Part shown: piece by piece, positions 1 to 62,960 of the stretch | Position numbering within the stretch: position 1 is the stretch's first letter | How the letters are laid out: every line of letters starts with the position of its first letter | Assembly: GCA_963669155.1 (NCBI GenBank) | Contig: OZ022597.1 | Coordinates: forward strand, 13,026,826-13,090,825 | Origin: Arbacia lixula | Lineage: Eukaryota; Echinodermata; Echinoidea; Arbacioida; Arbaciidae | Reading direction: 5' to 3' | Length of the DNA: 64,000 nucleotides | Program-made: the position numbers and the translations under genes | Notes under the pieces: model-generated | What the model saw: the letters and a program-made list of their open reading frames with translations, nothing else | Database searches by the model: none | Told to the model about the DNA's origin: nothing

Positions 1-660
1 TCCTCGCATTGAACACTGACATTTTGCTCTAGCAGCTAAACGAGACCTTGGTAACTCTCATCCTAATTCTAATCCCAAACCCAGTCCCAATCCCAGTCCT
101 AACCCTAACCCTAGGACACCAACATGCTTGGTGCTTAGCTTGACCAGACTGATGGCATACTCCTTGCAGAAGCTGAAAGAGACACTGTTACCTCTCATCC
201 CAATCCCAATCCCAATCCTAATTCTAGTCCTAACTCTAACCCTAGGACACAGTGCTTACCTTGACAAGGCTGATGTCACACTCCTTGCATCAGATGATGA
301 CTTTGGGATCCAGAAGCTTAAAGAGACCCTGGGAACTGTCATCCCAATCCCAATGCCAATTCTAGTCCTAACTCTTACCCTAGGGCACAGTGCATACCTT
401 GACAAGGCTAATGTCACACTCCTTTCATCAGATGACTTTTGGGATCTAGAAGCTAAAAGGGACCCTGGTAACTCTCATCCCAGTCCCAAACCCAACCCTA
501 ATTTCAGTCCTAGGACACAGTGCTTACCCTGGCGAGGCTTATGTCACACTCCTTTCATCAGATGATGACTATGGAATCCAGAAGCTGAAAGAGACCCTAG
601 TAACTCTCATCCCAATCCCAATACCAATTCTAGTCCTAACTCTAACCCTAGGACACAGTG
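1..660 (-). repeat. Minisatellite seeded by the 3' edge and donor site of ATP6V1E exon 4
   Basis: About five diverged copies of a 125-150 bp unit precede the real exon edge in plus-strand order, near 1-60, 130-190, 250-330, 388-470 and 510-595; the genuine edge is at 657-740. Each unit resembles the end of exon 4 (plus-strand motif ACAAGGCTGATGTCACACTC, then CCAGAAGCTGAAAGAGAC) and most keep the donor, read as CTTAC on the plus strand. Between the exon-like blocks lies a C-rich stretch of short CCCAAT or CCCTAA-like words, partly telomere-like. The array continues to the left window edge, so its full size is unknown. It lies in the intron downstream of exon 4. Confidence 0.85.
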
Positions 661-665
661 CTTAC

Positions 666-3144
666 CTTGACAAGGCTGATGTCACACTCCTTGCATCGGA
701 CGATAACGTTGGGTTCCAGAAGCTGAAAGAGTCCCTGTGCGAGCAGGCCCTGGACCACATTCTTGTACTTGGTCCTGTTCTTGGTCAGCTCGGTGAGCCG
801 CTCTTGGGCCTCATCCAGAGTGGCCTGGACATGGTCCTCCCTGGTCTTCAACACCTTGAGTCTGGCCTGGTTCAACATGTTGGACTGTAGACTGGGGAGA
901 TGGAGCAATGAGTATTGAATTATGAGATAATGCAATGATGAAGAGAAAGAAGGAGTGAAAGAAGAAATAAGGAGAGGGAAAGGAAAAAAGAAGAAGGAAG
1001 AAGAAGAAGAAGAAAGAAAGGGTGAGGGAAATGATCTTCAGGACCTTGAGTCTAGCCTGATTCAACATGTTGAAGTAAAGGCTTTTGAGAAATGATTTAG
1101 CAATGAGTATTGAATTATGAGATAATGCTTAATGACGAGAAAGAAGGAGTGACAGAAGAAGTAAGAAGAAAGAGAGGGAAAGGAAAAACGAAGAAGGAAG
1201 CAGAAGAAAGAAAGGTTGTGGGTAATGATTTTCAGCACATTGAGTCTGGCCTAGTTCAACATGTTTGACTGTAGACTGGTGATATATGATATAGCAATGA
1301 GTATTGAATTATGTGATAATGCATTTATGAAGAGAACGAAAGAGAGGAAGAAGAAATAAGAAGGTAGAACATAGCAGAAAGAAAGGGTGTGGGAAATGAT
1401 CTTAAGCACCTTGAGTCTGGCCTGGTTCAACATGTTTGACTGTAGACTGGGGAGCTATGATATAGCAATGAGTATTGAATTATGTGATAATGCATTAATG
1501 AAGAGAACGAAAGAGAGTAAGAAGAAAGAAGAAGGTAGAACATAGGAGAAGAAAGAAAGGGTGTGGGAAATGATCTTAAGCACCTTGAGTCTGGCCTGGT
1601 TCAACATGTTGGACTGTAGACTGGGGATATATGATATAGCAATGAGTATTGAATTATGTGATAATGCATTAATGAAGAGAAAGAAGGAGAGTAAGAAGAA
1701 GGAGAAGGTAGAACATAGGGAAGAAAGAAAGGGTGTGGGAAATGATCTTGGGCACCTTGAGTCTGGCCTGGTTCAACATGTTGGACTGTAGACTGGGGAG
1801 ATGTAGCAATGAGTATTGAATTATGTGATAATGCATTAATGAAGAGAAAGAAAGAGAGGAAGGAGAAAGAAGAAGAAATAAGGAGAAGGAAGATGGAGAA
1901 GAATGAAAGGATGAGGGAAATGATCTTCAGGACCTCAAGTCTAGCCTGGTTCAACGTGTTGGACTAAAGGCTTCTGAGATATGATATAGCAATTAGTATA
2001 GAATTATGAGATAATTCATTGATGGAGAGAAAGGAGTGACAGAAGAAGTAAGAAGAAAGAAGGAGAGGGAAATGAAAAAAGAAGAAGGAAGAAGACGAAA
2101 GAAAGGTTGTGGTTAATGATTTTCAGGACATTGAGTCTGGCCTGATTCAACATGTTGGACTGCAGGCTGGGAAGATATATCATGAATCATTCAATGATGT
2201 CATAAATTATGATGATGATGATGAAGGAGAAGAGAAAGAGCGAGCGGGAGGAGACGGAATATTAACAGAAATGAAAATGAGGAAAAGAAAGGCTAAGAAG
2301 GAGAACAAGAAGAATGAAAAAAAAGATGAAAAAAATGAGGAAAGAAGGAAAAGAAAGAAAAAGAAAAATGAGGAGAAGAACGAAGTGAAGTAGAAGAAGA
2401 TAGAAAAAGAAAAAAAAAAGCATTAGAAAAGGCACAATAACAATAACAATTACTCACATTTTCTTTTGCAGATCCAGGTTTTTCTCTTTACGGGTATAGA
2501 ACTCTGCAATCTTTATCCTCTGTTGCTGGACAAGCCGACCCTTCTCGATCTGGAACTCCTCCTCTGCCTGAAACGTAAGGAAACAATCAACTAGCGTTTC
2601 GTACCAGAGAATCTTAGAAGAAGACAATATCTGAAATATCTCAAAACGAGTAGATTTATACCTGTAATATCAATCTTGTTATTTACACTGAAAACACCAT
2701 TTCAAGAAATAAATTGAACGAAGATGGACATGAGCACATATATCTTCAATAAAATAAAGATACCCCTAACTAACCGCTAACAGTCTTTCTATAGCATACA
2801 AATAAGTAATTTTAAATACCATTTGCAGACATGTAATATATTTGCCTATGCAATGTACCTATTATCTTTGTGTACATGTATTGGTGAGTGCCAGTTCAGG
2901 AACAGTAATTTGAGATGTTCATTGTTGACTAACTAGTAACAGGGGTACTATCAGTGGATGTTACAATATATTGTTGGTTAGTAATGTTGCATTGGGGGAG
3001 TGGGAGAAAGGAGGGAGACATGTACAGTGTAGAAAGAGAAAGAGACAGAGAGAGGGAGAGAGTGAGAACGAGAGAGAGAGAGGGGGGAGGGAGAAAGGGA
3101 GAGAGGGAGAGAGAAAAAGAGAGGAGGGGAGAGAGAGAAAGAGG

Positions 3145-3319: not shown

Positions 3320-6300
3320 ATATAATTACATGTAGAAGATTTGGATAAAGGTAGAAATGGAAAAGAGTAAAAAGGAAAGAAAAAACAAGAAAAACAGAAA
3401 GAGCATGACAATGACGAAGAAAATTACAGATAGAAGGAGAGATAGAAAGTAAGAGTCATAGAGAGAAAAAGAATCAGGGAGAGGGACAGAGAAAACTTTT
3501 CACAAGATCAGAGAGGAAGAAAACATATATCAAAACCCAGGAGAGAAGAGCGCAAAGAGAGCAGAAACAAAAAAACGCCAAAGGAAGTGACTGAAATCTA
3601 ATCACACTGGTTTCCTCATCTTGCATACGGTTAGTTTTGTTTTGACTACGTTATTCACGAATCTATGTACGGCAGTGGCTATGTCCATGCAAAGTACATG
3701 TAACATACAGAAAGGAGAACATGTTGTTAGCACATTTCCCAATTTTTACCAAGTCTGATTTATACGTTGACAAAAAAATATTCCATACATTGTCAAAAAT
3801 ATACTGGTTCCAAAGCAATTTAACACAAAAGATTAAATTGATGACCTTTGGAATGACCTTTGGATTACATGTACATATGTGCTTGTGCCTACCTTTGCTT
3901 CAATTTCTTCTGCTTTTTCCTTGGCCTCTTGATCAATAAAAGCCATCATGTGTTGAATCTTGGGGAAAAAGATTAAAATATAATGTCAGAAATTTAGCCA
4001 GAATCTGTCAGGCTATTGTCAAAATATACCTGTTATACAATCTTTCAATGTCGGTACCTGGAGCCATGTTCATGAAACCTTACTAGCCTACTGGTAGTTA
4101 GGTACTTAGGATGTATGTAGCTGAATGTAATTTGCTGACCATCTAGGCTTAGAACGGTTTCATGAATGTGGTCCCAGTTCTCCAAAATTAACAAGTTATA
4201 ATGCATAATTGCCTAGAAAATATTCGAAACACAGAGAGGTGAGATTACTGTTAAAGTCAAATTTACAATGGCTGGATTTTGCAAATGCTGTGAACTTATT
4301 ATGTGTGATTCACATTTAATAAAATATGATGACTCTGTGTTTGCTTTCTTGGCACCAAATGTTGCATACACTATATGTAGTAGATGTGCACCACACATCC
4401 AGCAAAGAAATATTAGACTTCATTTCATCTTTACTGGGTGCTAAACCTTGTCATTCAAATAAAACATAAAAAATAAGTTATAGTGGAGAATGGCTTCACA
4501 ATATACAACTACCTGCAAATGTTGTGGAACAAACATTTGCACTATATTTTCACAATTTCCAAAAATATTTTCAAACCAGAAAATATTTAATGGATGGCTC
4601 AAAATGACAGAATGTCACTTTTTGTCAGATATCCGTGCGAGACGCGTGGTACACAGCTATGGTACACATGGCTCAAAGAAAGCAAAAATAATAAGAATAA
4701 TAAGACTGTTACTGATTTTTATTCATCTTTAAAGATTACTGATCTGCACAACATCACAGCCTAGCTGCATATTCTAAGATTTTGTCAATTAAAACTAAAT
4801 CATACCTTTTAGAGAATGTTCTTTATATTTGCCTTTCACCTACGTAGATGAGCACCGTATGTTCAGTGCATTTGAGTCACTGTGATTAAAAATCACAGAC
4901 GGACTCGGGTGGGCCTAGAACCCCAAATCATACCTGTAATCATAGTTTTACTCAAACTGGTTTCTTTTTTCTCCTCTGGAAGTTAAACTAACTTTGGTGG
5001 ACAATTGCCATGAAGGTTCTTTCACAACATTGCATGTAACCTGTTACAGTAGCTGCCACCCTAGACTGAAAAATCGCTCTCTGTGGGACGTTGGATCTGC
5101 TGAGATTGCATCTGGCTCCTCTGAACGCCCTACCTAGAGACTGAACATTACTCCTGTAATGGCGAGCACACTGCTCGGTGCAGTCAAATTGAAATGAATA
5201 CAAACGGCCGATCAATTTTACTTTTCTCTGTCTTTAACAAGCCCAAATCCACAATTGGTATTTAAATATTATTGCATAGGTTCTATACTTACAATATCTG
5301 GCTTATACAACTCGGTTTTAAACGAGCACTTCGGACAAGTCCGTTTTGTCATTGTTTTTGTCATTTGTTCATTTGATGCAGGTCACCATTTTAAATCTGA
5401 AAACGCTAATGCCAATGCAAATATATGAATAAGAAATTGAACGCATATGCACATTTTTTTCCCGCTCATATGCTGTATGCTTTTTTTTTACCGTCGAAAG
5501 ATGTGACGATTTAAATATTCATAGCCAGCAGCACGTCGAACAATCCGATTGGTCAAATTTATTTCAACTCGAGCAGATTAAAAAGGTCTGCTACATACGT
5601 TGATGGACGGAAAGTCTGAAATTTTCACCTTTCTATATATTTCAAGGGAAGTTTGGTCCTAAAATTTACGAATACATGTATATACATATAGATTAGATCT
5701 CATTTTGATTGAGGTGGATGTGTTGCATCATAGCTTGAAAGATGTTAAAATTTGAGACAAAGTTGTTGTGACGTGCAACACATGTGCATTTATTAACCCC
5801 TTATTACAAAATTCAGATATGAATATCGAGAATAGCATGTTTGCCTAGACTAACTTTCGAGCGGAATATGACCAAAATGGAAAACTAAAAAATTGACGAA
5901 TTGATATCACAAAACAAGTTCACAACAATCTTCATCAAAATTATTTGTTGTACATCAAGCCAATCACTTTATGAGAATAATCAATGTTTTAAATAATACC
6001 TCACCCCATAATAATTCAGCCTGATATTTTATCAATAATTGCGGAAAGTCGTGAAAAAGGCTATCCATTTTGTCTGGAAATTCTCAACCGGTAAATTAAA
6101 GGCGGTAGGGCCTAGCTAGTAATCGATACACGAGATGAAAAAGATGTCACTGATAATCTAGCATTTTCTCTGAGAAATGGTTTAGCATGATCAATACTAT
6201 AATGAGTCCTACATGAGATAGCACTAGCATAAATAGCCTCAAGATTGTTGGACCCTGTTGATAAGAGTTATCACACTCTCGTCTAGATCCAGTGCTGGCC

Positions 6301-6530
6301 GGGTCGTCGTCGGCGATTGCCTAGCACTGTACCAGACCGCACCCGGCGCGCCCGGCCTGAGCCTGGCTCCGAAACTCGTGACTAAACGAAGCTGGGCAGA
6401 TGTCTCAGAGGCTTGCTCTAATGCCTGTAAACTTCCCGTTATCTTTGCGAAATTAAATCAATCAAAACTATGAATTAATATTTAAATATTAGCTTACTTG
6501 TTTTTGCACATCTTCGTCGCTCAAAGCCAT
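666..6530 (-). CDS. ATP6V1E1: V-type proton ATPase subunit E, exons 1-4 (3' end outside window)
   Basis: Subunit E pairs with subunit G to form the peripheral stalks that hold the V1 head of the vacuolar proton pump against rotation, on the cytosolic face of acidic organelles. Coding exons on the minus strand are 6530-6498, 3958-3893, 2567-2458 and 891-666. All introns are GT-AG and the phases join (0, 0, 2, 0), giving 145 of the roughly 226 residues usual for the family. The start is [11 protein letters not shown], followed by [22 protein letters not shown] in two pieces of the same exon, then [30 protein letters not shown] and QGLFQLLEP, all hallmarks of subunit E. The N-terminal half is the expected long charged helix. 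The remaining C-terminal exons lie left of base 1. Both introns flanking exon 4 carry tandem arrays copied from the edges of that exon, described separately. The one-gene or two-gene status (E1 or E2) cannot be decided here. Confidence 0.95.
892..2175 (-). repeat. Minisatellite seeded by the acceptor and 5' edge of ATP6V1E exon 4
   Basis: Seven further copies of the start of exon 4 lie upstream of it in the intron, near 1035-1080, 1225-1285, 1400-1455, 1577-1625, 1752-1800, 1929-1975 and 2122-2170, with a period of about 165-190 bp. Five of the seven contain the acceptor region (CCCCAG or a mutated form, then CTACAG), and all carry codons close to [13 protein letters not shown]; similarity to the exon then stops right after the lysine codon. 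In the true exon the next residues are TREDHVQ, whereas the copies run into a purine-rich spacer (plus strand GAAGAAAGAAGGAG type). The same unit also carries the motif AATGAGTATTGAATTATG. The exon part is better preserved than the spacer. Confidence 0.9.
2200..2420. repeat. Purine-rich GAA/GAAAA tract in ATP6V1E intron 3
   Basis: The plus strand is almost pure purine with degenerate GAAAA and AAGAAG words, beginning with a (GAT)n block near 2210. It continues the spacer composition of the adjoining exon-edge array. The open frame across it has only K, E, R and N residues and I do not regard it as coding. Confidence 0.7.
3040..3320. repeat. (GA)n purine tract with G runs
   Basis: Near-pure GA dinucleotide sequence with interspersed GGG blocks and an 11-base G run near 3165, inside ATP6V1E intron 2. 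Open frames on both strands here are low-complexity RERE/SLSL translations. Confidence 0.9.
4059..4175. mobile_element. Short inverted-repeat element (MITE remnant)
   Basis: The ends GAGCCATGTTCATGAAACC and GGTTTCATGAATGTGGTCCC are inverted copies of each other with a few mismatches, enclosing about 75 bp that are also partly complementary. This is the layout of a small foldback MITE. It lies in ATP6V1E intron 1, close to exon 2. Confidence 0.6.
4176..6497. other. ATP6V1E intron 1, mostly unassigned
   Basis: AT-rich intronic DNA. Apart from the dispersed repeat near 5085-5170 (listed separately) I see no convincing feature. A short minus-strand frame near 5350-5285 encodes a CxxC-bearing stretch ([16 protein letters not shown]) followed by GTAAGT. 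It might be an exon, but it has no partner I can find and no family I recognise. Confidence 0.4.
5085..5170 (+). repeat. Dispersed repeat, copy 1
   Basis: The stretch GTTGGATCTGCTGAGAT followed by CATCTGGCTCCTCT and AACGCCC recurs in reverse orientation near 21615-21680. It is an unnamed interspersed repeat with no visible ends or coding capacity. Confidence 0.55.
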
Positions 6531-7852: not shown

Positions 7853-10800
7853 ATGAGTGGAAATCAAAGGAAGAACTATTACAGCTTTGAATCACGGGAC
7901 ACCGTTTCCTGTGTTGAGTTTTCACCGTTCGAACAGTCTTCCATGGTTGTCGCATTTGGGGGAGACCTGCGCGTTAGTGTTGGAACATGCAGATTTCAGG
8001 CAAGTGCACCCCGTACCCATATACTAAAATTTGTGTCAGTGTGTGAGACTAGTACTATAGAACAGTCTGAAGCTGACTCAGTGACTGTGTCTGTGATTTG
8101 TGATTAAGTTCATAATCGTATGATGGACGTGTACCGGGGGATGGGAGGGGAAGAAGTCTCACTCTGGCTTACTTGATTGGATTTTGATCGAGAATAAAAA
8201 AAACTGAAACAAATCAACGAAGAAGAATTTAAATTAAAGAAGAAATATTTATTACAAACCTCAACACAAATTGTGTACAACAGATAGAGGAGCGTGGTCG
8301 CTAGCCGTCGTGTACATTTTTGCTTATTATATGACGTCATCCAGCCACTGCCGAGAGGCAATCTATGAATGAAAATATAGTAAGCATGCGCCACACAGTA
8401 TTCCACCAAAACAAGTGTGAAATTCTCTATTACCTCGTGCCAAAATCGACCTAGAATTTCACTTTCCTATATTTTATATGAATTATGAAAGTTATTCTCA
8501 GGGGATATATTTTCTCACCAATACCGCACAGGTAAGCGAGTTTCGATTGCTTCTTGCTTTTCTGTCAAAATCTTACTACTTAGCGTCTCCCCCGCATCGT
8601 GTGTGTTGGAATTTGTAGAGTCTATCGCAACGTGCACAAAGTCAATTGGCTTCCGGGTTTCGGAGAGTCGCGTTAATATGCATGAAATTGCAGAGTTTCG
8701 ATAATTTTTTATCGATACCGGAGCGCTCCGATCACGAACCAAGACCATTTCCTGCGTACACAACGTGACCGGATATCGTTATCACTATCGATACTTCCAC
8801 ACGCAGTCCGAAGGAATTATTTTGGCAACCACGTGGTCATGATGTGATCTGCGCGATTGCCCAATGAGCGGTCTCCGAATCGCTGTGCGGAGACGATCTA
8901 TCCGTTGTACACAGTCTATGGACAATTGTTCGTTGTGCTCAAAGGCAAAGTTAGGGACGCCCATGTCCATGACATGTATCACTAGATGGCACTTCACATG
9001 TAACTGCGAAAACGGAATGGCAAAATGGTGAGCGCATTATCTGTGACTCAGAGACGATGCTAAAATCTTGTTTAAATAAATACTTTTCTTGTTAAGGTAT
9101 TTTGCCAAAATTAATGATTTCTATGGATTATCAATAGTGCAAACAAGCGTATATGGTGAGCATTTGTATTTTGAAGTTGTTTTAATATTTTGTGGGCGTC
9201 CCTAACAAAGTTCATTTCGCAAGCGCTGCCGCTGGTTGAATCCTTAACTTTTTTACCTTGGGCTTGGATTGGACCTTTTAAGGCTAGGCAAGGCTAGGGA
9301 AGGGAAATGTTACCTTTGTGGGTGAAACTGCCCTTAGGATGGCTACAAAGAGCCACTAGTTCAATTCTTACAGGAGGGAATAAAGCCAGGAGGAGAAGTT
9401 ATATGGCCTGGCCTTGGGTGACATTGCTCTCTAACTCTGTGTGGGTGTATGATGCTACTTCTTTAGTTTCGTTTATTTGTGTTTGATAAATGTTTCAATC
9501 TGTTTATGTTTCAATCTATTTATGTCATGTTTTTTCTTGATGTATGTATTTCAATGTTATTGTTTTTAAAGTTGTGTTGGAATAAAAACTGAACTGAACT
9601 GAATGCTAGCTGTCTCCTTGGCTTTGGCTTTGCAGGAGGAGGACAGGGCTGTGACAGGGTGCGAATACCAGCACCTCCGAGACTTCCACCATGGCACCAG
9701 GGTGCTAAGCATCGCCTGGAGTCCGGCCACCTCCCTGGATGTGTTGCCTCGCTGCCTGAGGTACTGGAAGGGCTGGGCATCTCACGTCACTCAACCTAGG
9801 GAATAATTGAGGGGCAATCCAGGGGCCCATATCACAAAAGCTAGGATTGATTGTACAATTGCTATCAATCGTTAATCCATATTACATAGAATCTGTGATC
9901 GATATCGATCGTAGCTTGCAATTGATATTGATTGTATTTTTTGTGGATCCATCATAACTGTACAATTGATTGCAAAAAGTAGGACTGCAAATGTAGGACT
10001 TAAGATTTGATGAGCAATTCCACTCAGTGGACTTGTGTAGTGGACATGTAGTGGACCATGTTATGCAGGCTTCTAGTTCTAAGATACATCACTCAAGTGA
10101 GAGATTACTTGTCCAACATTGTCTAGTGGGCTGAGAGTCCCACTGTGATCACTGCTGTTTGCTCTACACTAAGAGTTTGGATCCAGTTATCTTGACAACA
10201 TGTTCATATGATGTCACACTTTGGTAATATATAGGGTTTGTGGTTCACCTGTTGCTTCTAACTTCGTCTTGTTTATCTGCAGGTTTTGCACGGCTGGTTT
10301 GGACAACAAGATACGGGTCATCACGTCTGACCTCAAAGACCAAGATACTGTTCAGGTACAAAGAATAATTGAAAGCAAAACAACAACAATCAAAGAACAT
10401 ACACAATTTCCTCACTCAGATTAGCCCTGATGTTTTTTTCTGTCTTTGAACTATGTATTAGAAATTTGATACTTTTGCTTGTAGTCTGTAGTGCAATTGT
10501 GTAGTGATCTCAATTTAAGCAGTATGATATGGCTATACAGTGCATGAACTGTTTGTTTCTATGTTTTTGGCTGGTCCTATCCATTTAGATCAATGCACCT
10601 GTTCATAAATTATGATATTGGATAGAAAATGAAATGAATAATCAATTATGTTATGTAAAGTGTTGTAATAGCCTCAAAGTTTGCCGTACACAGTTCCTAG
10701 CTTGATTTAAGACAATTTACAGGCAAGCCTTAAAGTAGACTTTGTAAGAGGTTTTAAAGGGGAAGAGAATCTTCGGGCCAATTTCATATTTTTGAAAGAT

Positions 10801-13184
10801 GGACTTCCAGTATACAGCTCCAAAAACTATTGAACAATAAGAGACTGCAGAGTATGACATGCATGTATACTCTAACTATTCCATAATTGTCTAAAAAGAT
10901 TGCTTAAATATACCACTTTTAAAAAAAAAAGTTTCTTAACTGTTAGACTGTCCTCGTAAATGATACATGAAAATGGTGAATAGGTCAGATTTCACCAACA
11001 GTATATAGTAATAATAATATAATAAAGTTCTTTGTTATGTGTCAAATTTAATCACAGGTCATCAAGGGTCACCAAGATTTCATCAACTCACTGACCTTTG
11101 AACCCATAAAGGGTGAGGTCATAGCCAGCGTGAGCGACGACCACACCTGCCGGCTGTGGGGGCTGGATGGACGACAGAGGGCGGTGTTTCCCCTCAAGTC
11201 TGCTGGGATGTCTGTTTGTTGGAATCAGAGTGATCCAAATAAGGTATGAAGGAGTGAAGGAAAGAAAAGGGCATGAAGGATAAGTGGATGACTGGGCAGA
11301 TGACTGGATGGATAGATAGATTGAGCCATGGATGGACAGTGGGGAAGGCAAACTCCCCAGCAAGTGGAGATGGTGCACATATGTCATGTGTGTGATATGT
11401 CTTTGTATCCTCAGCCCAGGGCATTGATTGTGACATCACTCTAATAATTCAGTATTTGGACTGCAATCGACAAACTCCTATATACCACTGAAAAAGAAGA
11501 AAGATTATTAACATGTGGTGTCATTAGTACCCCTCTCATTAAAATGGATCCGTTCACTTTGTTTTAAATCAGTGGTTTATTCATGCCTTGGTACCAAGGA
11601 GGTTAAGATCACCACCTTGTTTTGGTGTTCCTTCCCCCATCCAGCTGATGGTAGGAGAGAAAGGAGGAACGATCCGTTTCTACGACCTGGTCAGCGAGCA
11701 GCCCTTCATGTCGCTGGAGGCCAGTCATCCTGGTCTGATGTGTGCTGACTGGAGTCTGTGCGACCCTACCAGGGTAGGAGCCATCGTCAGCGGGGAGTGG
11801 ATGGTGTGGGACATCACACGGTCAAGGTTAGAATGCAAGCAAACGCTACGATATAATGATGATCACATGGTCAAGGTTAGATCGCAACCAAACATCACAA
11901 TGATAAAAATAATGGTCATACTGGGACATCATACATCAAAGTTAGATCGCAACCAGCCATCATGGTATGATGGTAATTGGTAATAACACAGTAAAAGTTA
12001 GATCCCAACCAAATATAATCATGATAAAAATGATGATAATACTGGAACATCACATGATCAAGATTAGATAACCACCAAACACCACAAAATAATGATATTG
12101 ATAATGATGATGATAGTGTGACATGACATGATCAAAGTTGGATTGCACCCTGATATCATGATATGATGGTAATCATGTGGTCAAGGGTTAGATTATAACC
12201 AAACATCAAAATGATAAAAATAATGATAACACTATGATATCACACGTTCAAGGTTAGATAATCACCAAACACCACAAAATAATGATGATGATAGTGTGAC
12301 ATCACCAAACAGGACGATAACAATGATAATAATGATGAAAATAATGATGAAATCATGAAAGTAATAATGGTGATAATGGGACATTACATGGTCAAGGTTA
12401 AATTGTTGTAGGAGGTTAAATGTAGCACATGAAGACTTAAACTTCCTTCTTTGTCGTTGGTGCCCGCAGCCAGCCACAAGACTCTGAGCTGGCCCATGGA
12501 GAGGGGGGCAAGGAGTTCCGATGGTGTCGGTCCAGCGAGAATCTCTTTGCTACCACCGGACGGCCAAACAACGAAGCCAAAGTCTATCACCTAGGACACC
12601 ATCAGGTGGGTAGACCAGTGTTTCCACTCTCCAAATGTTTTTTTTTTTCCTGAAATGAACCTATTTCCTGAAATAATCTAGAGCACCATTAATCAGATTT
12701 GGCTCAAACTTGGTACATGTGTGCATTGCATGAAACTGATGAATTGTGTAAAGAAGGGGTCAATTCCAGAAAAGCTCAGAAATTGATTTCAAGAGGGATG
12801 GAAACACTGAGGTTGACCATAACATTAATGCTAGAAGAATCTAGGATATAGTCTTTGTTTTGCTGTTACACTCCGTAGCAATAACATTACTGGTAATTGA
12901 TCAATCTCTAAAAAAAAATCATGCAACCTAGCAATCTGAAATAAAAGAAGTGAATAAAAAATTTGAAGATGGAGACCTTTAACGTATTCCACCTGCTCCT
13001 CTCTCTCTCTCTTCCCCTGCCTCGCCCCACCCCTGCCCCACCCCTGCCCCGCCCCTCCTCTCCCCTGCAGGTCCCGGTGACCGAGAGCCTGCCTGTGCTG
13101 GGGGGTTTGTCCTGGCACGCCTTCCTGCCCGTTTGTGCTGTGGGGGGTGACCGGAGGATTCACCTCTACCCTGCAGAGCCCTGA
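7853..13184 (+). CDS. NUP37: Nucleoporin Nup37, complete, seven exons
   Basis: Nup37 is a WD40 beta-propeller subunit of the Nup107-160 (Y) complex, the scaffold of the nuclear pore, which also goes to kinetochores in mitosis. Exons are 7853-7999, 9636-9760, 10283-10355, 11058-11243, 11645-11826, 12470-12605 and 13071-13184. They join in phase to 963 nt, 320 residues, against about 326 in human. Recognisable family stretches are VEFSPFEQ and AFGG in exon 1, LRDFHHGTRV and IAWSP in exon 2, RFCTAGLDNKIRV in exon 3, GHQDFINSLTFEP and SVSDDHTCRLW in exon 4, GTIRFYDL and VWDITRS in exon 5, SENLFATTGRP in exon 6, and LSWHAFLPVCAVGGD near the C-terminus. The first ATG at 7853 is the only suitable start. 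Intron 1 uses a GC donor (CAG|GCAAGT); the others are GT-AG. Intron 5 holds a tandem array copied from the end of exon 5. AATAAA at 14032 is a possible polyadenylation signal. Confidence 0.96.
8330..8950 (+). mobile_element. Truncated copy of the 47-kb TIR element, in NUP37 intron 1
   Basis: From GACGTCATCCAGCCACTGCC to TCTATGGACAATTGTTCGTTG this stretch aligns block by block with about 47255-47890, with scattered substitutions and indels. The second copy has extra sequence near 47770-47850. The terminal inverted repeats seen at the 47-kb locus are not present here, so this is an internal or decayed copy. There are no coding frames of note. Confidence 0.75.
9440..9602 (+). mobile_element. Possible 3' tail of a retroposon with (TGAAC)n end
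   Basis: The sequence ends in AATAAAAACTGAACTGAACTGAA, a polyadenylation-like motif followed by three short pentamer repeats, as seen at 3' ends of LINE or SINE families. The tail stops only about 35 bp upstream of the NUP37 exon 2 acceptor. The 5' limit is unknown. Confidence 0.45.
9828..9965. mobile_element. Possible decayed foldback element in NUP37 intron 2
   Basis: GGGCCCATATCACAAAAGCT on the left and a loosely complementary block ending near 9965 enclose several ATTGAT/ATCAAT words. The pairing is imperfect, and I list it only as a likely eroded MITE. Confidence 0.3.
11850..12410 (+). repeat. Minisatellite seeded by the 3' edge and donor site of NUP37 exon 5
   Basis: Exon 5 ends GGGACATCACACGGTCAAG|GTTAGA. 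Diverged copies of this junction recur downstream in intron 5, centred near 11875, 11935, 11990, 12055, 12130, 12185, 12245 and 12390, plus a truncated one near 12298. The exon part appears as GGGACATCATACATCAAAG, GGAACATCACATGATCAAG, GATATCACACGTTCAAGG and GGGACATTACATGGTCAAGG, each followed by a GTTAG, ATTAG or similar donor and CAACCAAACATCA-like spacer with AATGATAAAAATAATGAT words. The period is about 55-75 bp. Several copies keep an intact GTTAGA donor. Confidence 0.85.
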
Positions 13185-17403: not shown

Positions 17404-20400
17404 TCAGATACCAAACCAGGTGGGCACCCCTCCCCTCGCTGCAAGCTGCTTCTGGGTCACCTTCTCCTTCTTCTTGAGGTCCTCCGCCATCTCGTCGTTC
17501 TTCTTCTCCTCCGTGTCGGGGAAGAGCTCAGGGAACTCAAACGTATGGTCCTCCGGCTGTGTAGATGAGGGTAGGGGAGAGAGGGGGGGGGGGGGGGAGA
17601 AGGGAGAGATACAGATGGGTAGAGGAGAGTTGGGAAGAGGATAGCAAGGAGAAGAGAGGGGGGGAGAGAGGAAGAGGGAAGAGAGAGGGAGAGGTGGGAA
17701 GAAGATAGAGAGGATGACAGAGGGGGGAATTATGAGATTTGATCAATCATTCCATAATGGCGTAAACAAGATCTGGACGGACAGAGGGATGGATTACCCA
17801 GAAATAAATGTCATCTGGCTACTTAGTGGCAGAGGCATAACAAAAGGGATTCCTACAAAATGGATCTGATCCAATATCCATCACTGTGATAATTTCAATG
17901 CAATACCGAATTGACCATCCATATAGTTGATATACACACATAAAAAGAACATATATACAATCATTGATGTTGTGAAACCATCAACTATATTTGACTAAAC
18001 ATGCGAGAAAATACTATCTACCATGACACCTCCAAAAAAGTAAGCGATGGTTGCACTTACCAGAGTGACGTAGGCGAGCTTGTAGTCTTCTCTGAGCTTC
18101 ACCCTCTGGTTCTTATGGTTACGCTGGAATGGCACGTAGATGACGTTGGTATTGACCCTGACCACCGGCACCTTGTAGATACTCTCTAGGTAGTTCTTGA
18201 TGTCAAACTTGGTCATCCTGGTTAGAAAGCAACATAACATGACACGTCTAAGTTTAAAGACAGCCTGTCCCTTTTTCAGATCATCACAAAACCATCGAAA
18301 CATTGGCAAAACAGATAGAGAAGTGTTAGCAAGCTATATTCATAATTTGAAACTGATACGTAGTGTAAAATTCAAATAATGCACGTAAACAACGTCTGAT
18401 CAATAGTCTTTACCTCAGGCTCTTAGCAGTTTGTGTTGAAATATCTGCTTTATTGATTGATCTGTTTACTGAATTATAAAACGCATTATGAAAAAAATGT
18501 TCTATAGAAGGAATCATCTCCAAAGTTTGGTAATAACTCATAAAATTAGAATTTCACACATGCATATTAACCACATAGATACTGTAACAAAGACTCATAC
18601 TTTTTTCGTAGTATGAAAAAAGTCGGTTTGAAATTTAACGGCTGAAATTTTTTACATATACAGGAAGCTTCAATATTCTATATTCTTAGAAATGGTCTTG
18701 AATCACACTTTCTTTAATTTACGATCGTGATAGACGATTTCAAATTTTAAGCTTGCAAAAGGGACGGACAATCTTTAATGTAATAAAGCATAAAAAGCAG
18801 ATAAAAAGATATGAGGGCACTGTGGTACAGTGGTGAGAGCTCTTGACCCTTGCAGAGAAATCCTGGGTTTGGACCCCGTTCAGTGCGTATACCCTTAGAC
18901 AAGGTGTTTTATTCACATTTGTCTCTCTCAACCCAGGTGGAGTAAATGGGTACCTGGCAGGAATTACCCCCCATCTAATTAGATCAACTAGCTTCTAACA
19001 CTACATACTTGGCTGCTTGGCTAAAACCTGGGTAATAATTGAGTGCTTTGGTAAGTACTTCTTACTTGGAAAGTGCTACTCTTTTGTATTATTAAAGATA
19101 AAAAATCTTCTCAAAAAAATATGCATCCTTGTACCTGTGCATTTGATACATCATCAGAAATACATTTTTACACACATACCTGTGTGAAAAAAATCATTCC
19201 GTTGCAAAAAACAGAAAAAGAGCAATTCATGTAATTATATTGTACACAACATATGGGTGAGCACCTCGCACATGATGTTCCAAAATTGAAATTTCAAAAT
19301 CGAATAACTTTCTTTTCCTTTGACCGATTTTCGTCAAACCTTCACTAATATGTTTCTTTCATGTTTCTGCTTTAATTGAAACCAACTGATCTTCAGGGTG
19401 AACTATCCCTTCAACTGGGTCATGGGAAAGTATCTATATGGGCATGCATGAGCTGTACTGTACTCACTGCAAGTCGCACTCAAAGGTGACCACATTGGGC
19501 GGCTGGGGCTTCTTGTTCTTGATGAGCTTCATGCAGAAGTCTGTGAAGAAAATCCTCCGCTGGGGATTCCCCAGGACAAAGACGGGATACCTAGAGGGAT
19601 AAAGAGAAACAAAATGTACTTGATTCCAAAGGAGATGATTGGTTGTTTCTACCCCCTATATCTCTCTCCGAATATCAGTGAGCGTATGTCCGACAAGATA
19701 ATGTTTTACCTCCGCACTCCCTTACCCCCACCCCAAAACTTACTTAAATGCACAGCAAATGAGAAAATGTAGCTGTGATCAGTGCAGCATTTGACAATAA
19801 TAAGCCTAAATTATGGAAAATGCTCCCAAAACAAGCACAAACAATGCATCACATTTTTGGCAGAAGTGTGATGCATGCATTGTTTATGCTTATTTTGAGC
19901 GTATTTTCCGTAATTTGGGCTTATTATTGTCAAATGCTGTACTGATCAAGGCTACATTTTCTCATTACTTACCGTGCTTAAAGTGAGTTTTGGCTTGTTC
20001 AAGACATGTTTCGGCGCTAGATTACAAATATTTTTGAGCATACACATACATGTAAGTACTATGGATCTGAATAAGAGTATGGAATATGGGTTTAACCATG
20101 CATGGATACAACTATGGGCAGATCTACAGGTTTAATTGAGCTTGTGACCAAGCCAGCGTTTGCGTTTCTGCCGTTGTGCTGTTACTAGAGTTGGTTATTT
20201 CACAATGCTTTCCCTTGCTTTCTACCGTACCATATCGAAATGAAATGTCTGAAATGTGAATATCAACAATATTTGAAGTCATATAGCGCCTTCACGATTT
20301 ATTGATTTAGTCGTGAACTCCATTTATTGTCTATTCGATATCTTTTCAATATCACATAAGCTCAATATTATCAAACAATCATGCAGCACTAATGTACAGA

Positions 20401-20425
20401 TTCCAACACACCTTGCTTTTGACAT
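17404..20425 (-). CDS. MRPL23: Mitochondrial large-subunit ribosomal protein uL23m, complete, four exons
   Basis: uL23m sits near the polypeptide exit tunnel of the mitochondrial ribosome. Minus-strand exons are 20425-20412, 19590-19468, 18217-18061 and 17556-17404. All introns are GT-AG and phases fit, giving 447 nt and 148 residues against about 153 in human. Diagnostic stretches are YPVFVLGNPQRRIFFTDF, MTKFDIKNYLESIYKVPV (the L23 fold core), the basic RNHKNQRVKLREDYKLAYV, FEFPELFP, and the C-terminal GGVPTWFGI, matching the conserved GGVPSWFGL end of animal MRPL23. The first coding exon holds only 14 nt (MSKA and two bases of the next codon), so the start depends on the spliced model, but no other ATG fits. 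Intron 2 contains a 525-bp MITE and a SINE. The gene converges with NUP37. Confidence 0.96.
17575..17735. repeat. G- and GA-rich tract in MRPL23 intron 3
   Basis: A run of about 15 G near 17583-17598 is followed by degenerate GGAGAGA sequence. It begins about 20 bp upstream (minus-strand sense) of the last MRPL23 exon, so the acceptor's pyrimidine tract is part of this repeat. Confidence 0.85.
18254..18778. mobile_element. TTAA-flanked MITE, family copy 1, in MRPL23 intron 2
   Basis: TTAA at both ends; inverted termini AAAGACAGCCTGTCCCTTTT and AAAAGGGACGGACAATCTTT. The full 525 bp is repeated at 58770-59298 with high identity, including ACATTGGCAAAACA, CAGGCTCTTAGCAGTTTGTG and ACGATCGTGATAGACGATTT. 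A third locus (45807-46089) shares the termini but not the interior. There is no coding capacity. Confidence 0.88.
18812..19100 (+). mobile_element. tRNA-derived SINE
   Basis: The head looks like a tRNA gene with a polymerase III A box (GTGGTACAGTGGTGAGAGC) and a B box near GGGTTTGGACCCC. It is followed by a tRNA-unrelated body (AGACAAGGTGTTTTATTCAC, CTCTCAACCCAGGTGGAGTA, AATGGGTACCTGGCAGG) and a short AT-rich tail with GTATTATTAAAG. The head-body-tail order is that of deuterostome SINEs. It sits directly beside the MITE in MRPL23 intron 2. Confidence 0.8.
19110..19412. mobile_element. Right part of a MITE related to 14496-14980
   Basis: Shares AATATGCATC near its left limit, CACCTCGCACATGATG, TTTTCGTCAAACCTTCAC and the end CTTCAGGGTGAACTATCCCTT. 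The left end is missing where it meets the SINE tail. Confidence 0.65.
19770..19945. repeat. Inverted repeat in MRPL23 intron 1
   Basis: GACAATAATAAGCCTAAATTATGG with downstream GCATCACATTTTTGGC is complementary to CCGTAATTTGGGCTTATTATTGTC and the preceding segment, giving a foldback structure of about 170 bp. Confidence 0.6.
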
Positions 20426-21610
20426 CTTGGAAATAGCCCTTGGGAGTAAAATGAAATCTCTCGCTCTTGGATGATGGTCTTCAAGCTTTGAATGACTTCT
20501 TCCCAGTTGCAGAGGTAGATTCTACATCTCCAGCTCAGCTACACTTCACTCAATAGAAATATCGACTGTTAACAGCACCCCTGGAGAAATCGATGAAACA
20601 AATATAAAAACTCCTTAAACTTAAATGGAACACTTCAGCACAGCAGGATCCTACACAAGGTTAGTGATCTTATAATGTAACTTTTCATTTTGTTTTTATT
20701 AATGCTATTGTCCTCCTCATTGCAAAGGACAATCTCTTTGCTTTGCTGAAAGTTGCAAGGACAAATAGCACCATAGTGTTTAGGAACATAATAATAAGTG
20801 CCATATAAATTATTTAATATATTGTAAACTTATGTAGCATGGAGTCATGGACATGTTTGTTTTTACAAGTGAAACTCTGCATCTGCCATTGAGGTATTCT
20901 TTCCATGCACACAATAATTCATAACATGATCTTCTGTTAGACTACCATCTGGAATTTAATGTGAGGGAATCAACCGTATGCTCAACCAGAAACCACAATC
21001 CCTTTTCTCTTAAAATTCTGTCATCAAAGACCAACTGTCATCGGAAGTTATCATTTTTTTTTTACACTGTCAGAGACTGAAATAAACTATCCTACTCAAT
21101 CACCATCTTTGTAGACTCAACAACATTCCAGAATGCACATCTACTCTAACTTTTTAAGTGTTAGCAAAAAGCCCTCTTCAGTCTTGATTCATGGGTGAAG
21201 TTCCAGTTGGAGCTGATCAACACACTAAAAAGGTTGAAAGGTTACAATGTTTCTTCATTCATAAACACATATCTAAAGGCAACAGGGCGCAGCAGTTTGC
21301 CTCGTACATACTGACAGGGCTGCTGCTCTGCAGTTATCCAACAATATTACTAGTAGGACAGGATTTGCAGGGGAAACAGGTCAATTACAGTGTATGAAGC
21401 TGAAAGATCAAGGAGCTTTAGGCAGTCAGAGTTGAAACCAGATAGTTGATTGACTAATTTACTGTACTGTAGATTACGAAACAAAACTAGCTCACTGGAT
21501 CTGGATCAGAATAGTCACACACACATTCAATAAACATGCGTGATACTACAGGAATAACCGTGACCGTCTCATTCGGGGCATTCTTTAATCAAAATTACAT
21601 TTTTAGGCAT
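20426..21610. promoter_or_regulatory. MRPL23 upstream region
   Basis: The 5' end of MRPL23 must be here, just above 20425. No TATA box is obvious. Beyond about 20600 the sequence is unassigned and AT-rich. Confidence 0.4.
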
Positions 21611-24987: not shown

Positions 24988-25155
24988 GGATCTCTGCAAT
25001 CTGATTAGTCAATAACCATGCATCCGGTAATTCCCGGATGCATGATTTTGTCATAACCATGCGTCCGGTAATTACCGGACGCATGGTTATGACAAAATCA
25101 TGCATCCGGGAATTACCTGATGCATGGTTATTGACTAATCAGATTGCAGAGATCC
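24988..25155. repeat. Near-perfect 168-bp palindrome
   Basis: Two 84-base arms with a single mismatch and no spacer meet between 25071 and 25072 (GTCCGGTAATTACCGGAC). The outer ends are GGATCTCTGCAATCTGATTA and its complement. Smaller palindromes such as GCATCCGG...CCGGATGC are nested inside each arm. AATCAGATTGCAGAGAT recurs near 25818, suggesting an eroded second copy. Confidence 0.95.
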
Positions 25156-26745: not shown

Positions 26746-26879
26746 GTGGATAAGTGGTCTTCTGGCATTGCCTTGTGGGGGAATTTATTATTTGTATATG
26801 TGTGTGTGGGGGGGGGGGGGGGGAGGGGGTTGGTTCTCCTCAAGCCTCATATCATGTAAGGAACATTCAGTAGTTTTAC

Positions 26880-36765: not shown

Positions 36766-36822
<57 letters not shown>

Positions 36823-41700: not shown

Positions 41701-41707
41701 GTAGTAT

Positions 41708-43334: not shown

Positions 43335-43562
43335 ACACAACAGCTCAAAGGAATTGACATAGGGAAAGGGAAGAAAGGGAAGGAGCAGCAGTTTTAAACC
43401 ACAGTATATTTTGTCCAGTTCAGCATGAAACACAATGCTATTTAGGCTAAAGCATCTTGTTTCATGTTGAACTGGACAAAATATACTGCAGTTTAAAACT
43501 GCGGCTCCATCCCTTCCTTCCCTTTCCCTTTCCCTATGCCAATTTCCTTTGAGCTGTCGTGT
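43335..43562. mobile_element. Foldback hairpin element, copy 3
   Basis: ACACAACAGCTCAAAGGAAT and TTTCCTTTGAGCTGTCGTGT form the ends; the arms again contain AGTTTTAAACC and GGGAAGAAAGGGAAGGAGC with complements. One short indel in the purine arm separates it from copy 2. Confidence 0.88.
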
Positions 43563-44132
43563 ACATGTATGTGTACCTTATACATTGCATATATATATTT
43601 TATTATTTTAGTTGAGGTCCCCGGCACAAATACATGTCTTTAAATGACTGCTCAGTCATAAACACATGCTAGTTCCATACTGCATATGGTCTGAAATGCT
43701 AGACTACTCAGACATGTTGAGTGCATTGCTGTCAGTAGTCTTCACACCTGACTGCATAGGTATGCGTCATCACCCTGGTTGTTTTGGTCCTGCTGTGTTC
43801 TCCATTGTTCTATACTTCTGTACCTCTCTTGGAACAGAAGCAGGATCTACATGTATTGATTCCTGGTAGTAAACAATGATCTTTCCCCCCGCATTGTTTC
43901 ACCAAAGCTGGGGAAACCCATGGTTTTGTGATACATAAAACGCATCCCTATTTACTGTACACTGCAGATGATGTAAGATTTAGCCTTGGCTCTAGGCTAT
44001 AGAGTCCATAGACACAACTAACTGCATCTGTTTAGATCTACAGTATGTCTAGTAACAAAGACTACCGTATGTGTTACCCCCACTTGCTCTCATTTCACAG
44101 GATGAGGGGAGAGGGCATTGACCTGTTTTCAA

Positions 44133-51892: not shown

Positions 51893-52249
51893 AAAAGGAG
51901 CACACCCAGGTGTTGTTAATTAGTTGTTTTCAAATGGCCATTCATGGATCGATGACCAGTCAGGCCATTGTCCTTGATTGACCTATGTGCATTGCCAGAC
52001 CAATTCTAAGGACAGTTTCCTGAAACTCAGTTGTTTGTCAAGTATTTCTCCCTTCACCATCCAATGCCATGGTCACTCTCTGAGTTGGTATGTATTGCGT
52101 AACATCTTGATGTTCTCTCTTTGTCTGTTTCATACCCCCTACTTTGTTTTTTTCTCTTCCATCTGCATGTCTGTCTCTGTCTTTGTCTATCTCTGTCTGT
52201 CTCTGTTTCTGCCTATGTTTATGTCTGACGCTCCCTCATTTTCTCTTGC

Positions 52250-53135
52250 TCTCCTGCTTAAAATCATCCCCTCTTCTCTTCTCTCCCTTCCCTTCTCTTT
52301 CTCTCTACCAATTCTTTCTTCTCTCTCCCGCTTTCTCCCATCTCTTTCCCATTTCTCTTTCTCTCTCCATCCCCCGTTTCCCCTTCCCTCCCCATCTCTT
52401 CACCTCCCATTCTATTCACCTCCCTTTACCCCCCCTCCCTCTCTCCCCCTCTCTCCCCCTTTCCCCTCTCTCTCCCTCTCTCTCCCTCTCTCTCCCTCTC
52501 TCTCCCTCTCTCTCCCTCCCTCTCCCTCCCTCTCCCCCTCTCCCCTTCTCTCCTCCCTTCCATATCCCTCCCTCTCTTTCTTTCTCTCTCCCTCTTCCTC
52601 TCCCTCTCCCTCTCCCTCTCCCTCTCCCTCTCTCTCTCCCTCTCTCTCTCCCTCTCCCTCCCTCTCCCCCTCTCCTCTTCTCTCCTCCCTCTCTTCCCTA
52701 TCCCTCCCTCTCTTTCTTTCTCTCTCCTTCTTCCTCTCCCTCTCCCTCTTTCTCCTTCCCTCCCTCTCCCTCTCCCTCCCTCTCCCTCTCCCTCTCCCTC
52801 TTCCTATCCCTCTCCCTCCCTCCCTCTCCATCTCCCTCTCCCCCTCTCCCTCTCCCTCTCCCCCTCTCCCCCTCTCCCTCTTCCTATCCCTCTCCCTCCC
52901 TCTCCCTCTCCCTCTCCCTCTCCCTCTCCCTCTCCCTCTCCCTCCCTCTCCCTCTCCCTCCCTCTCCCTCTCCCTCTCCCTCTCCCTCTCCCTCCCTCTC
53001 CCTCTCCCTCCCTCTCCCTCTCCCTCTCCCTCTCCCTCTCCCTCTTCCTCTCCCTCTCCCTCTCCCTCTCCCCCCTCTCCCTCCCTCTCCCTCCCTCTCC
53101 CTCTCCCTCTCCCTCTCCCTCTTCTCCTTCCCTTG
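52250..53135. repeat. Polypyrimidine (CTCCCT)n minisatellite of about 900 bp
   Basis: Nearly pure pyrimidine on the plus strand, from degenerate CTCTTC at the left to regular CCCTCT hexamers at the right, with internal higher-order duplications (for example around TTCCTATCCCTCTCCCTCCC). Long SLPLPL and GRGRER frames on both strands are artefacts. Confidence 0.95.
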
Positions 53136-53520
53136 TCTCCACATCTCTCCTCGTATCCCCTTTACCATCTCCCATAGCTGTACCCTTTTCTACCATACAT
53201 ACATGTATCTCCATCTCCATCGCGTGCCACACCAGTGATGTGAATTTCACCCACTCCACTTCCCAGAAATCGTTATAAATGCAGAAATTGGTCAAGGTCA
53301 TACTTTGTGTGTGCTATCAGCTAGAGCAGTGGGCTTTCCACGAATTCTCACTTCATTACGTAGTGCATCCCTATAGCTGATCATTTTACATTTCAAGCGG
53401 TGAATGCCTCCTTTGCTAATTTCCATACCCAGTCATTCCCCTCTCCATCTTTCCCTGTCCCTGGCTCTGAGATATTAGAGTTGTTCCCCCTTTGTTTGCT
53501 AGAAATGCAGAGAATTCAGT

Positions 53521-58769: not shown

Positions 58770-59298
58770 TTGAAGACAGCCCGTCCCTTTTTCAGATCAC
58801 CACAAAACCATCGAAACATTGGCAAAACATATAGAGAAGTGTTAGCAAGCTGTGTATTCATAATTTGAAACTGATACGTAATGTAAAATTCAAATAATGC
58901 ACGTAAACAACGTCTGATTAATAGTCTTTACCTCAGGCTCTTAGCAGTTTGTGTTGAAATATCTGCTTTATTGATTAATCTGTTTATTGAATTAAAAAAA
59001 GCATTATGAAAAAAAATGTTCTACAGAAGGAATAATCTCCAAAGTTTGGTAATTACTCATAAAATTAGGATTTCACCCACGCATTTATAACCACATAGAT
59101 ACTGTAACAAAGACTAATACTCTTTTCGTAGTACGAAAAAAGTTGGTTTGAAATTTAACGGCTGAAATTTTTTACATATATAGAAAGCTTTAACGTGCTA
59201 TATTCTTAGAAATGGTCTTGAATCACACTTTCTTCAATTTACGATCGTGATAGACGATTTCAAATTTTAAGCTTGCAAAAGGGACGGACAATCTTTAA
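58770..59298. mobile_element. TTAA-type MITE, family copy 2
   Basis: A 529-bp close relative of 18254-18778 in the same orientation. The left target site reads TTGA, the right TTAA. Termini are AGACAGCCCGTCCCTTTTTC and AAAAGGGACGGACAATCTTT. Confidence 0.9.
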
Positions 59299-59844: not shown

Positions 59845-62260
59845 GGACCGGGTATAGAGGAGACCAGTGAAGTAAGAAGTCTGAGAACCAGACTAATGGC
59901 ACTCTGAACAAAAATGCCCTGCAGTCTTGATGCCAGGCTAACCAGAGCTGGATGGAATGAGGGAATGTTCTTGGGCTGAGGCCTTGAGCTGGTGTTAGCT
60001 AATAATCAATGGACATTAGTTTCTTTGCTCCAATACGTGCCGAGGGCTGCGTGCGTGCGTGACTGCGATGCCGGCTTCCAGCTACAACACATGCAGAGAG
60101 CTTGCTTTACAGACTATAAGCCAATCTGGTGTTCACGAGAGCGGGAGGCACGAATTTCATGGAATTAGCTGACGTGCGATATAGCAAGCTGTTGCATGTA
60201 CGCAGAAAGATATGACAATGAGGATCATTTATAGTTGAGGAGTGATAAGGGAGGATGACTTAGTTTGATCTTCTCTTGGAAAGTATCGGTAGAAAGTGCG
60301 TTGATCTACATTACCATAGTGCCCTGTTTGTGTGCACATGAATTCAGTATTACTGGAAGCCCTATTGGTAGATACATTTATTGCTTCATACATTCTTGGA
60401 TGGACGGACAGAAAGCATGACAGAGCTGGGTCTATGTTGAGAGTCTGATTTCTGGCTCAGTGGGTCGTGGAGGAAACAGATGGTGGAAGACTCGGCCAAG
60501 ACGCTTGGCTGGATTACGAGCGGAGAGCGAGAGCTTCCAAGAAGGTGTACTGGAGCCTGTAATGGGCGCATTAACCCAGTGATAGTCTAAGAACCATGAT
60601 GGTACATCGCTTACATGTGGACTTGCCACATTGTATATATGCAAGAGGTTAATAGCTTAATGAACATGTACAGGAAATAAGAAATGAAACTTTGGATCGT
60701 GTCAGGTATTACCACATGAACTCGAGCAGAATCGTTCCTTCGAGTCGTGCCGTTGCAATTAAGCTCAGTCAAGAATTCTCCCGCCTTTCGTTAGTGGAAG
60801 TGAACTTTACGTTCTTCAAAACTGCTTGCAAGTTGTCTGCTTTTTATTAACCGGAGCAGGAGTTCAAAGCTGGACATGAATAACTTTAGAGATTTTGTTG
60901 AGGAATTGATATCAGATTGTTTCTACAAGGATGCCATGGAATATATACTGTGTTCAGATGTTCACTGTGGATAAAGTGTGGTACAGTGTGTGATGTATTG
61001 AAAAATAGAAGTATTTGACCAGTGAGAACAGTTTGTTGTGCTATATCTGCTGTGATTAGGCCATTGATACATGCACTGTTAGTGTGTTGTATGTCATCAT
61101 TATGGATTGCAGTTTGTGCACCGTTACATATTGCAGTTGAGCAGTGGTGACAGCTGAGATCCATTCTTGCCATGGTTGCCTGTGGTATGTCAGCATATAT
61201 AAATCATATACCGGGTGTTTGGATTGATAAATGACAGAGACCTCAGACATTGTGACATGTGACAACGCTCTGTCGTGCTTGATTGCATTCAACCTCGCTC
61301 ATTCAAAGATTACCCGCTCCCCGCCCTTTCACCTGTTTCTCAACCTTGGACCAGTTTTACTTTGCAAAAGCGGAAATCTAAAACTTTCAATTTGTGTGCA
61401 CCGTGTGGGGAGCATTTCTTGAAGGTTGCGGCCAAGACAAGACCATTCATGAAGAAGAGGAACTTTTTAGTCTTAAAATGTGACTTACTGCTGACATCAC
61501 TCCTCGTTTTATCACAACACATTGGTCTGCAAACCCTCGCTTTTGTTCTTGCGTCCTTGATGCGGAACAGACTATCTGATGGCATTGGAGATCTCTCCTC
61601 TTTTGTGAAGCAAGCAGCATTGTTTACTATTCTATCTTACGTTCGTGGTCAGTGAACAGACACGTTGTGTCTCAGACGAAGGAAGCATTCAGTGAAAGCA
61701 ACTGTCTACTGCAGAAGTCTTACCGCGAACGTGATGCTTGGGATACAAGCTGCTGTTTGTAAACAAGACCTTTGCTGGTTATCTGTGATCATGCAGTACA
61801 TGGATATGGTGTGTTTCTTGAGGGAAACTGATGAATCCTGAACCTAATCTCTCTCCAATCAGACACAAATGTGCTACATGGATTCGAGGTGACAAATAAC
61901 TCGTGTACGTGTGCGCCATTGGAATTAAAAGACATCGAGCGGCTCACGCAGTTTCAGATGAGCAATAAGAAAATACGCTGAACATGAAACTGACAGCCCA
62001 TCAAATGTGTGCATTTCTGATTCTGTGAGCATCGTCAGAACCACATACATACAGATTGATTCACTAGTATCTCATTATCTTGCCTTGATTCTGCGTACGA
62101 TTCTGAACGTCCAAGCATGCTATAAACATAGAGCCCTAAGTGCATAGCATACAAAAGGGCAAATAACATTTCTTGCTGGAGGACATCTACACTTGACTCA
62201 GCCTCGTGTTAGCTCTGTCCGTCTTGCCTGACGTACGCCGGTCCGGTGAAGCCATCAATC
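59845..62260. promoter_or_regulatory. Repeat-free stretch upstream of the 62-kb exon
   Basis: About 2.4 kb with no recognisable repeats or elements, unlike everything to its left. It lies directly upstream of a probable first coding exon, so it is a candidate promoter and 5' UTR region. A 126-codon frame (61275-61655) lacks an early ATG and matches nothing I know. Confidence 0.35.
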
Positions 62261-62429
62261 ATGTTGGCCAATCTGACGTACGTCTACAACACGACGCTGC
62301 CGTCGCTGAGTGGCTCTCTGAGGCCCAAGGAGCTGCTCAAAGCGACCGAGCAGCCGGGAACGTTCATTGGTCTCAGTCTAACAGACAAGCTGCACTTCCA
62401 GTATGTTGTCTCAAGCTGCGAACCTAAAG
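62261..62429 (+). CDS. Probable first coding exon of an unidentified gene
   Basis: ATG at 62261 opens 56 codons plus one base to a good donor (CTAAAG|GTACGT). The product begins MLANLTYVYNTTLPSLSGSL and ends near KLHFQYVVSSCEP. Two N-glycosylation motifs (Asn4, Asn10) and a cysteine hint at, but do not prove, an extracellular domain; there is no classical signal peptide. The frame upstream is closed by TAG at 62210, so this looks like the start codon exon. The reading frame is partly kept in three partial copies downstream, where MFIGMSLSNKLYFQYV-like residues recur, supporting this frame over the overlapping one. I recognise no family. Further exons lie beyond the window or were not found. 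Confidence 0.45.
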
Positions 62430-62960
62430 GTACGTGTACATGTGTGGGGTCATTACTGGGTGCAGAGTGGTGGGGGGGGGGGGGGGGAGGGAGAACATGG
62501 CATGCATGTTCATCGGTATCAGCCTGTTAGACGAGCCGTACTTCCACAAGTTCCAGTATGTTGTGTCAAGCTGCGAACCTGGAGGTACTGTGTGGGGTTA
62601 GGATTGGGTGCAGGGGGGGGGGGGGGGGGGTGGTTGAGCCGTTGAGGGGGAGTGGTGTTGGAAGGGGGTGGGGTGGCGAGGGTGGAGATCATAGCACAAC
62701 CTGGCATGTTCATTGGTATGAGCCTGTCAAACAAGCTGTACTTCCAGTATGTTATGTCAAGCTGCAAACCTAAAGCCTAAAGGTACATGTGTGGGGTTAG
62801 TAATGGATGCAAAGTGGGGGAGTTGGAGGGGGGGGGGGGGGGGGGTGGGGGGTGGTGAAAACCATACAACAACCTGGAACGTTCATCAGTATGAGCCTAA
62901 TAAACAGGTTGCACTTCCAGTATGTTGTGTCAAGCTGCAAACCTAAAAATGTGTGTGACT
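62430..62960 (+). repeat. Minisatellite seeded by the 3' edge and donor site of the 62-kb exon
   Basis: Three copies of the last 70-80 bases of the exon plus its donor region follow it, near 62500-62600, 62700-62800 and 62870-62955. Each has GTTCATYGGTATGAGCCT, CACTTCCAGTATGTTGTGTC and AAGCTGCRAACCT; the first two continue into a GGTACNTGTGTGGGGTTA donor region. Copies are separated by G runs of 12-20 bases. The unit is about 170-190 bp. Confidence 0.88.

Follow-up and report, generated by a model that had tools for sequence, protein, structure and literature searches.

Genes in the window

The window, by which we mean the whole 64,000-base stretch of DNA analysed here, carries three identified genes and a predicted first coding exon assigned to no family (Table 1). 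ATP6V1E lies on the minus strand and is represented by exons 1-4, while NUP37 lies on the plus strand with 7 coding exons. The exons of each gene join in frame through GT-AG splice sites, with one GC donor, and their products match the solved structures of V-ATPase subunit E1 (E 1.9e-52) and of NUP37 (E 1e-104), respectively. The GC donor (TTCAG/GCAAGT, 7999-8005) is apparently used by NUP37 exon 1. The third gene, MRPL23 on the minus strand, was recognised through a Ribosomal_L23 match (E 2.8e-9); its exons were placed with the help of the human sequence, and the splice edges obtained in this way, which are approximate, are included in the edge counts reported below.

The original prediction had spoken of a gene at 62 kb; what we find there is no more than a predicted exon, initiated by an ATG and followed by a good donor. 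A Pfam search with this exon at E values of up to 1 gave zero matches, and the two matches obtained in the PDB (E 0.27 and 0.47) are no better than chance. Selected ORFs between ~20.5 and 62 kb were tested, with no gene identified. A set of 20 ORFs taken from the remainder of the window, of which 9 overlap repeat clusters, matched no Pfam family above the curated cut-off and gave only weak matches, to CBM_14 and DarP.

Table 1. Coordinates of genes, exons and junction arrays in the window
Feature	Position	Strand	Description	Basis
ATP6V1E exon 4 donor-side array	1..737	-	~138-base units: exon end, donor, intron	
ATP6V1E exon 4	666..891	-	acceptor 891/892, donor 665/666	gene model and protein match
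ATP6V1E exon 4 acceptor-side array	845..2207	-	~171-194-base units: intron, acceptor, first ~47 exon bases	
ATP6V1E exon 3	2458..2567	-		gene model
ATP6V1E exon 2	3893..3958	-		gene model
ATP6V1E exon 1 (coding part)	6498..6530	-		gene model
NUP37 exon 1 (coding part)	7853..7999	+	GC donor	
NUP37 exon 2	9636..9760	+		gene model
NUP37 exon 3	10283..10355	+		gene model
NUP37 exon 4	11058..11243	+		gene model
NUP37 exon 5	11645..11826	+	donor TCAAG/GTTAGA	gene model and protein match
NUP37 exon 5 donor-side array	11800..12420	+	degenerate; ~50-80-base units: last ~17-27 exon bases, donor, intron	
NUP37 exon 6	12470..12605	+		gene model
NUP37 exon 7 (coding part)	13071..13184	+		gene model
MRPL23 gene	17404..20428	-	splice edges approximate; comparison gene	
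Predicted first coding exon, no family assigned	62258..62429	+	ATG 62261, donor TAAAG/GTACGT	
62-kb exon donor-side array	62350..62966	+	last ~80-100 exon bases and donor; G-runs between copies	

Anatomy of the junction arrays

When each junction was aligned to the sequence around it (fitting alignment), four imperfect tandem arrays emerged, in each of which the unit combines the end of an exon with its splice site and adjoining intron. They are located on both sides of ATP6V1E exon 4, 3' of NUP37 exon 5 and 3' of the predicted 62.4-kb exon. Arrays seeded by the exon edge, splice site included, had been claimed for these places, and the alignments confirm the copies at the ATP6V1E and NUP37 edges; at 62 kb the copies stand as well, while the gene is reduced to the predicted exon. 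The authentic copy forms one end of its array and lies in a functional exon, with the 62-kb gene itself being only predicted.

The donor-side array of ATP6V1E exon 4 extends ~72 bases into the exon and contains 4 extra copies (89-577), which are 70-94% identical to the authentic copy over a 90-base probe, with GT retained in 3 of them. On the acceptor side of the same exon there are 7 extra copies (78-94% identity, 85-base probe), all with AG. The NUP37 array comprises 9 extra copies (60-74% identity, 45-base probe; the copy at 60% is doubtful), 7 of which retain GT, and was not returned as a single array by the tandem repeat finder. The 3 extra copies at the 62-kb exon display 74-83% identity to the authentic one (75-base probe), and GT is retained in 2 of the 3 as judged by eye, small gaps shifting the aligned position. 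Across the four arrays, GT or AG is thus present in 19 of 23 extra copies, in agreement with the strings of decoy splice sites that had been anticipated. In the nearby-copy scan with edge probes, no array was found at either edge of ATP6V1E exon 3 or at any of the 6 MRPL23 edges, and probing both edges of ATP6V1E exon 2 gave no clear array.

Copies lean towards resembling the authentic sequence more closely in their exon part than in their intron part: this holds for 9/9 NUP37 copies, for 5/7 copies of the ATP6V1E acceptor array (1 further copy being equal) and for 2/3 copies at the 62-kb exon. Such a lean would arise even if the copies were under no selection, since constraint acts on the authentic exon and not on the authentic intron. 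The ATP6V1E donor array is an exception, with the lean reversed and the exon part closer in only 1/4 copies.

Consequences of decoy splice site use

If splicing used one of the 4 ATP6V1E donor copies, of which 3 have GT, or one of the 7 acceptor copies, a premature stop would follow, and correct expression therefore requires that these copies be ignored. At the 62-kb exon, each of the two GT decoys reads into a stop, and the NUP37 GT decoys tested at 11875, 11996, 12136, 12186, 12252 and 12396 give an early stop. By contrast, splicing at the NUP37 decoy at 11940 would lengthen the exon by 114 bases (38 codons), keeping the reading frame and the normal protein end and meeting no stop on the way; no other decoy here stands an evident chance of yielding a viable product. 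The models of ATP6V1E and NUP37 keep intact reading frames, which is consistent, as far as sequence can tell, with undisturbed splicing.

Frequency of arrays at splice edges

Clusters were defined as nearby direct repeats among complex 60-base probes. In total, 21 were found, and the 19 supported by at least two probes were kept; these cover 10,315 of the 64,000 bases, and three of them (24988-25845, 36464-37090, 52130-53190) consist partly of palindromic or low-complexity DNA. The two single-probe clusters, one of which (3730-4232) overlaps ATP6V1E exon 2, were dropped before the placement test; with both kept, the edge-touching count would be 5/21. Repeat clusters outside the gene models may adjoin unannotated exons, the edges of which are excluded from the 26 annotated ones.

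Four arrays in 64 kb had been considered hard to explain by chance. The placement test does not support this view: 4 clusters touch an annotated splice edge (26 edges in all), where independent random placement gives 2.7 on average (P 0.28) and circular shifts give 2.7 (P 0.29). The number of splice edges covered by clusters is likewise 4, where 3.9 (random placement) and 4.2 (circular shifts) would be expected. Within the three identified genes, each of the 3 kept clusters touches an edge, although at their lengths of 740, 1420 and 600 bases random placement in those genes would produce such contact in 67%, 90% and 60% of cases.

A comparison with random seeds, run within this window, gave a similar picture. 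A nearby copy was found for 4/26 edge probes (15%) at scores 16, 18 and 20 and for 3/26 at score 24, leaving 22/26 edges without an array at scores 16 to 20. Overall, the edge rate lies within the 9-18% seen at complex random positions; within this window, the refuting condition named in the original prediction, a rate not above that of random seeds, thus came out against it. At scores 16 to 20 and a complexity cut-off of 3.3, a nearby copy was found at 15-18% of genic and 9-12% of other random positions, with the genic control including positions within the four arrays, which raises its rate. For scores 16-24, the strictest complexity cut-off gives corresponding values of 14-18% for genic positions and 8-12% for the others; when no cut-off is applied, these become 20-27% and 13-18%.

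A different result is obtained when one founding unit is counted for each of the 19 arrays: 0.92 edge-spanning units are expected vs 4 seen (P 0.012), a count that is post hoc, in a window chosen after the arrays had been seen, and for which the 15 other clusters were given unit lengths taken partly from repeat tables and partly from estimates. In combination, the three counts would allow a mild preference for junctions but do not establish an excess over chance.

Interpretation and relation to known mirages

Minisatellite-like tandem duplications of exon-intron boundaries are known as mirages and have been described in the amphioxus Adh, troponin C, globin and PGBD5 genes (PMC3087553, PMC3902484). 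The term goes back to Adh of B. floridae and B. lanceolatum (Canestro and others 2002, cited via PMC3087553). The globin mirages, in BflGb6 and BflGb9, have units of 150-160 bases (PMC3087553, PMC3902484), whereas those of PGBD5 have units of 60 and 108 bases (PMC3902484, where troponin C is also cited); the BflGb6 mirage occurs in two haplotypes, with 6 and 3 units (PMC3087553). Data on Adh3 and RT-PCR of globin transcripts suggest that mirages do not interfere with regular splicing (PMC3087553). The same source proposes that new introns may come from mirages and connects them with the tandem-duplication model of intron gain (Rogers), so the link to models of intron birth that was drawn in the original prediction is sound and, for amphioxus mirages, already in print. 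The accessible text on the amphioxus huntingtin scaffolds mentions tandem repeat elements and not mirages (PMC2206037).

The arrays described here are new loci of an already described phenomenon. As in amphioxus mirages, their tandem units run across an exon-intron boundary, be it at a donor or at an acceptor, and the copies are imperfect, many of them retaining AG or GT; the published units measure 60-160 bases. Unlike in the published cases, the genes involved are ATP6V1E, NUP37 and one without a family match, ATP6V1E exon 4 carries arrays on both sides, and the NUP37 copies are more degenerate. As in the Rogers model, in which an AGGT-bearing segment is duplicated, tandem duplication supplies extra splice signals, but here the copies lie within existing introns, at existing junctions. 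Ordinary intronic minisatellites are head-to-tail imperfect repeats of roughly 50-200 bases; the present arrays share this head-to-tail, imperfect organisation and differ in that their unit contains coding sequence and a splice site.

We consider it probable, at slightly better than three in four, that the arrays are mirage-type minisatellites produced by ordinary local tandem duplication that is tolerated across junctions, with no junction-recognising element needed. This reading is based on the anatomy of the arrays, the divergence of their copies and the lack of excess in whole-array placement; the mutational mechanism and the splicing outcome we infer. Local tandem duplication, presumably by slippage, unequal exchange or break repair, is frequent across this DNA. 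A gene would survive the duplication of a unit that crosses an exon-intron junction, since a complete exon and the nearest splice site remain, and a junction-crossing array would be tolerated because the exon-proximal splice site still works. The extra copies, sitting in the intron, could then expand or decay neutrally. The decoy sites would be tolerated because only the authentic exon has both splice sites at the normal distance, as exon definition would have it. An element recognising junctions, which had been put forward as one possible cause, was set aside because random placement gave no excess. Similarly, special seeding at junctions finds no support, local duplications being common throughout the window and edges being met about as often as random placement predicts.

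It is unlikely that exon-intron junctions are preferred seeds of tandem duplication, owing, for example, to R-loops, a paused polymerase, nucleosome edges or a junction-cutting nuclease. The founding-unit count and the three of three kept clusters touching an edge in the identified genes do point that way; however, the excess disappears when whole arrays are placed randomly, edges seed copies no more often than random positions, most edges at scores 16 to 20 have no array, and these very arrays were the reason for choosing the window. Were junctions preferred founding sites after all, which we regard as similarly unlikely, a noticeable share of introns in this genome would carry strings of decoys, some usable in frame, that feed alternative exon ends and intron birth.

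Distinctly improbable is the idea that selection holds the extra copies as decoys that tune splicing or provide alternative exon ends. The retained splice dinucleotides and the in-frame extension offered by the NUP37 decoy at 11940 are what it would lead one to expect, but at 75-90% identity many dinucleotides would be retained regardless, all 11 ATP6V1E copies cause a premature stop if used, as do both 62-kb GT decoys and every other NUP37 GT decoy tested, and published mirages are said to leave splicing undisturbed (PMC3087553, PMC3902484). Least probable of all is an assembly artefact, with reads or haplotypes falsely stacked in tandem. There is a precedent in a draft genome, where the assembly of one globin mirage was aberrant (PMC3087553), yet the present copies differ from the authentic ones by 6-40%, which exceeds sequencing error or the heterozygosity of 3.2-4.2% given for amphioxus (PMC12500494).

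With mirage-type duplication as the preferred reading, three genes and four junctions are added to the short list of mirage loci, the local rate being 4 of 26 annotated splice edges, and the results suggest that frequent local tandem duplication may be all that mirages need. The junction arrays and the over-representation of TACATGTA described below would give the window an amphioxus-like look; should the animal fall outside the cephalochordates, the known range of mirages would be extended to another group. Among the matches listed in the open literature there is no genome-wide count of mirages, although one may exist in subscription journals.

Other repeats in the window

Several further repeats were observed. 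A large array at 41690-42630, built of ~161-base units with a 53-base sub-period, has no recognised exon adjoining it. Three related palindromic elements of ~240 bases (26505-26747, 34002-34245 and 43332-43580), 76-89% alike in pairwise comparison, resemble foldback or MITE-type transposons, and a dispersed repeat of ~529 bases is present in two copies with 94% identity (18254-18778 and 58770-59298), one of them within the MRPL23 gene. In the whole window, TACATGTA occurs 49 times vs 1.49 expected in shuffles, and, read on the plus strand, the donor-side array of ATP6V1E (1-737) is rich in telomere-type motifs resembling CCTAACCCTAA.
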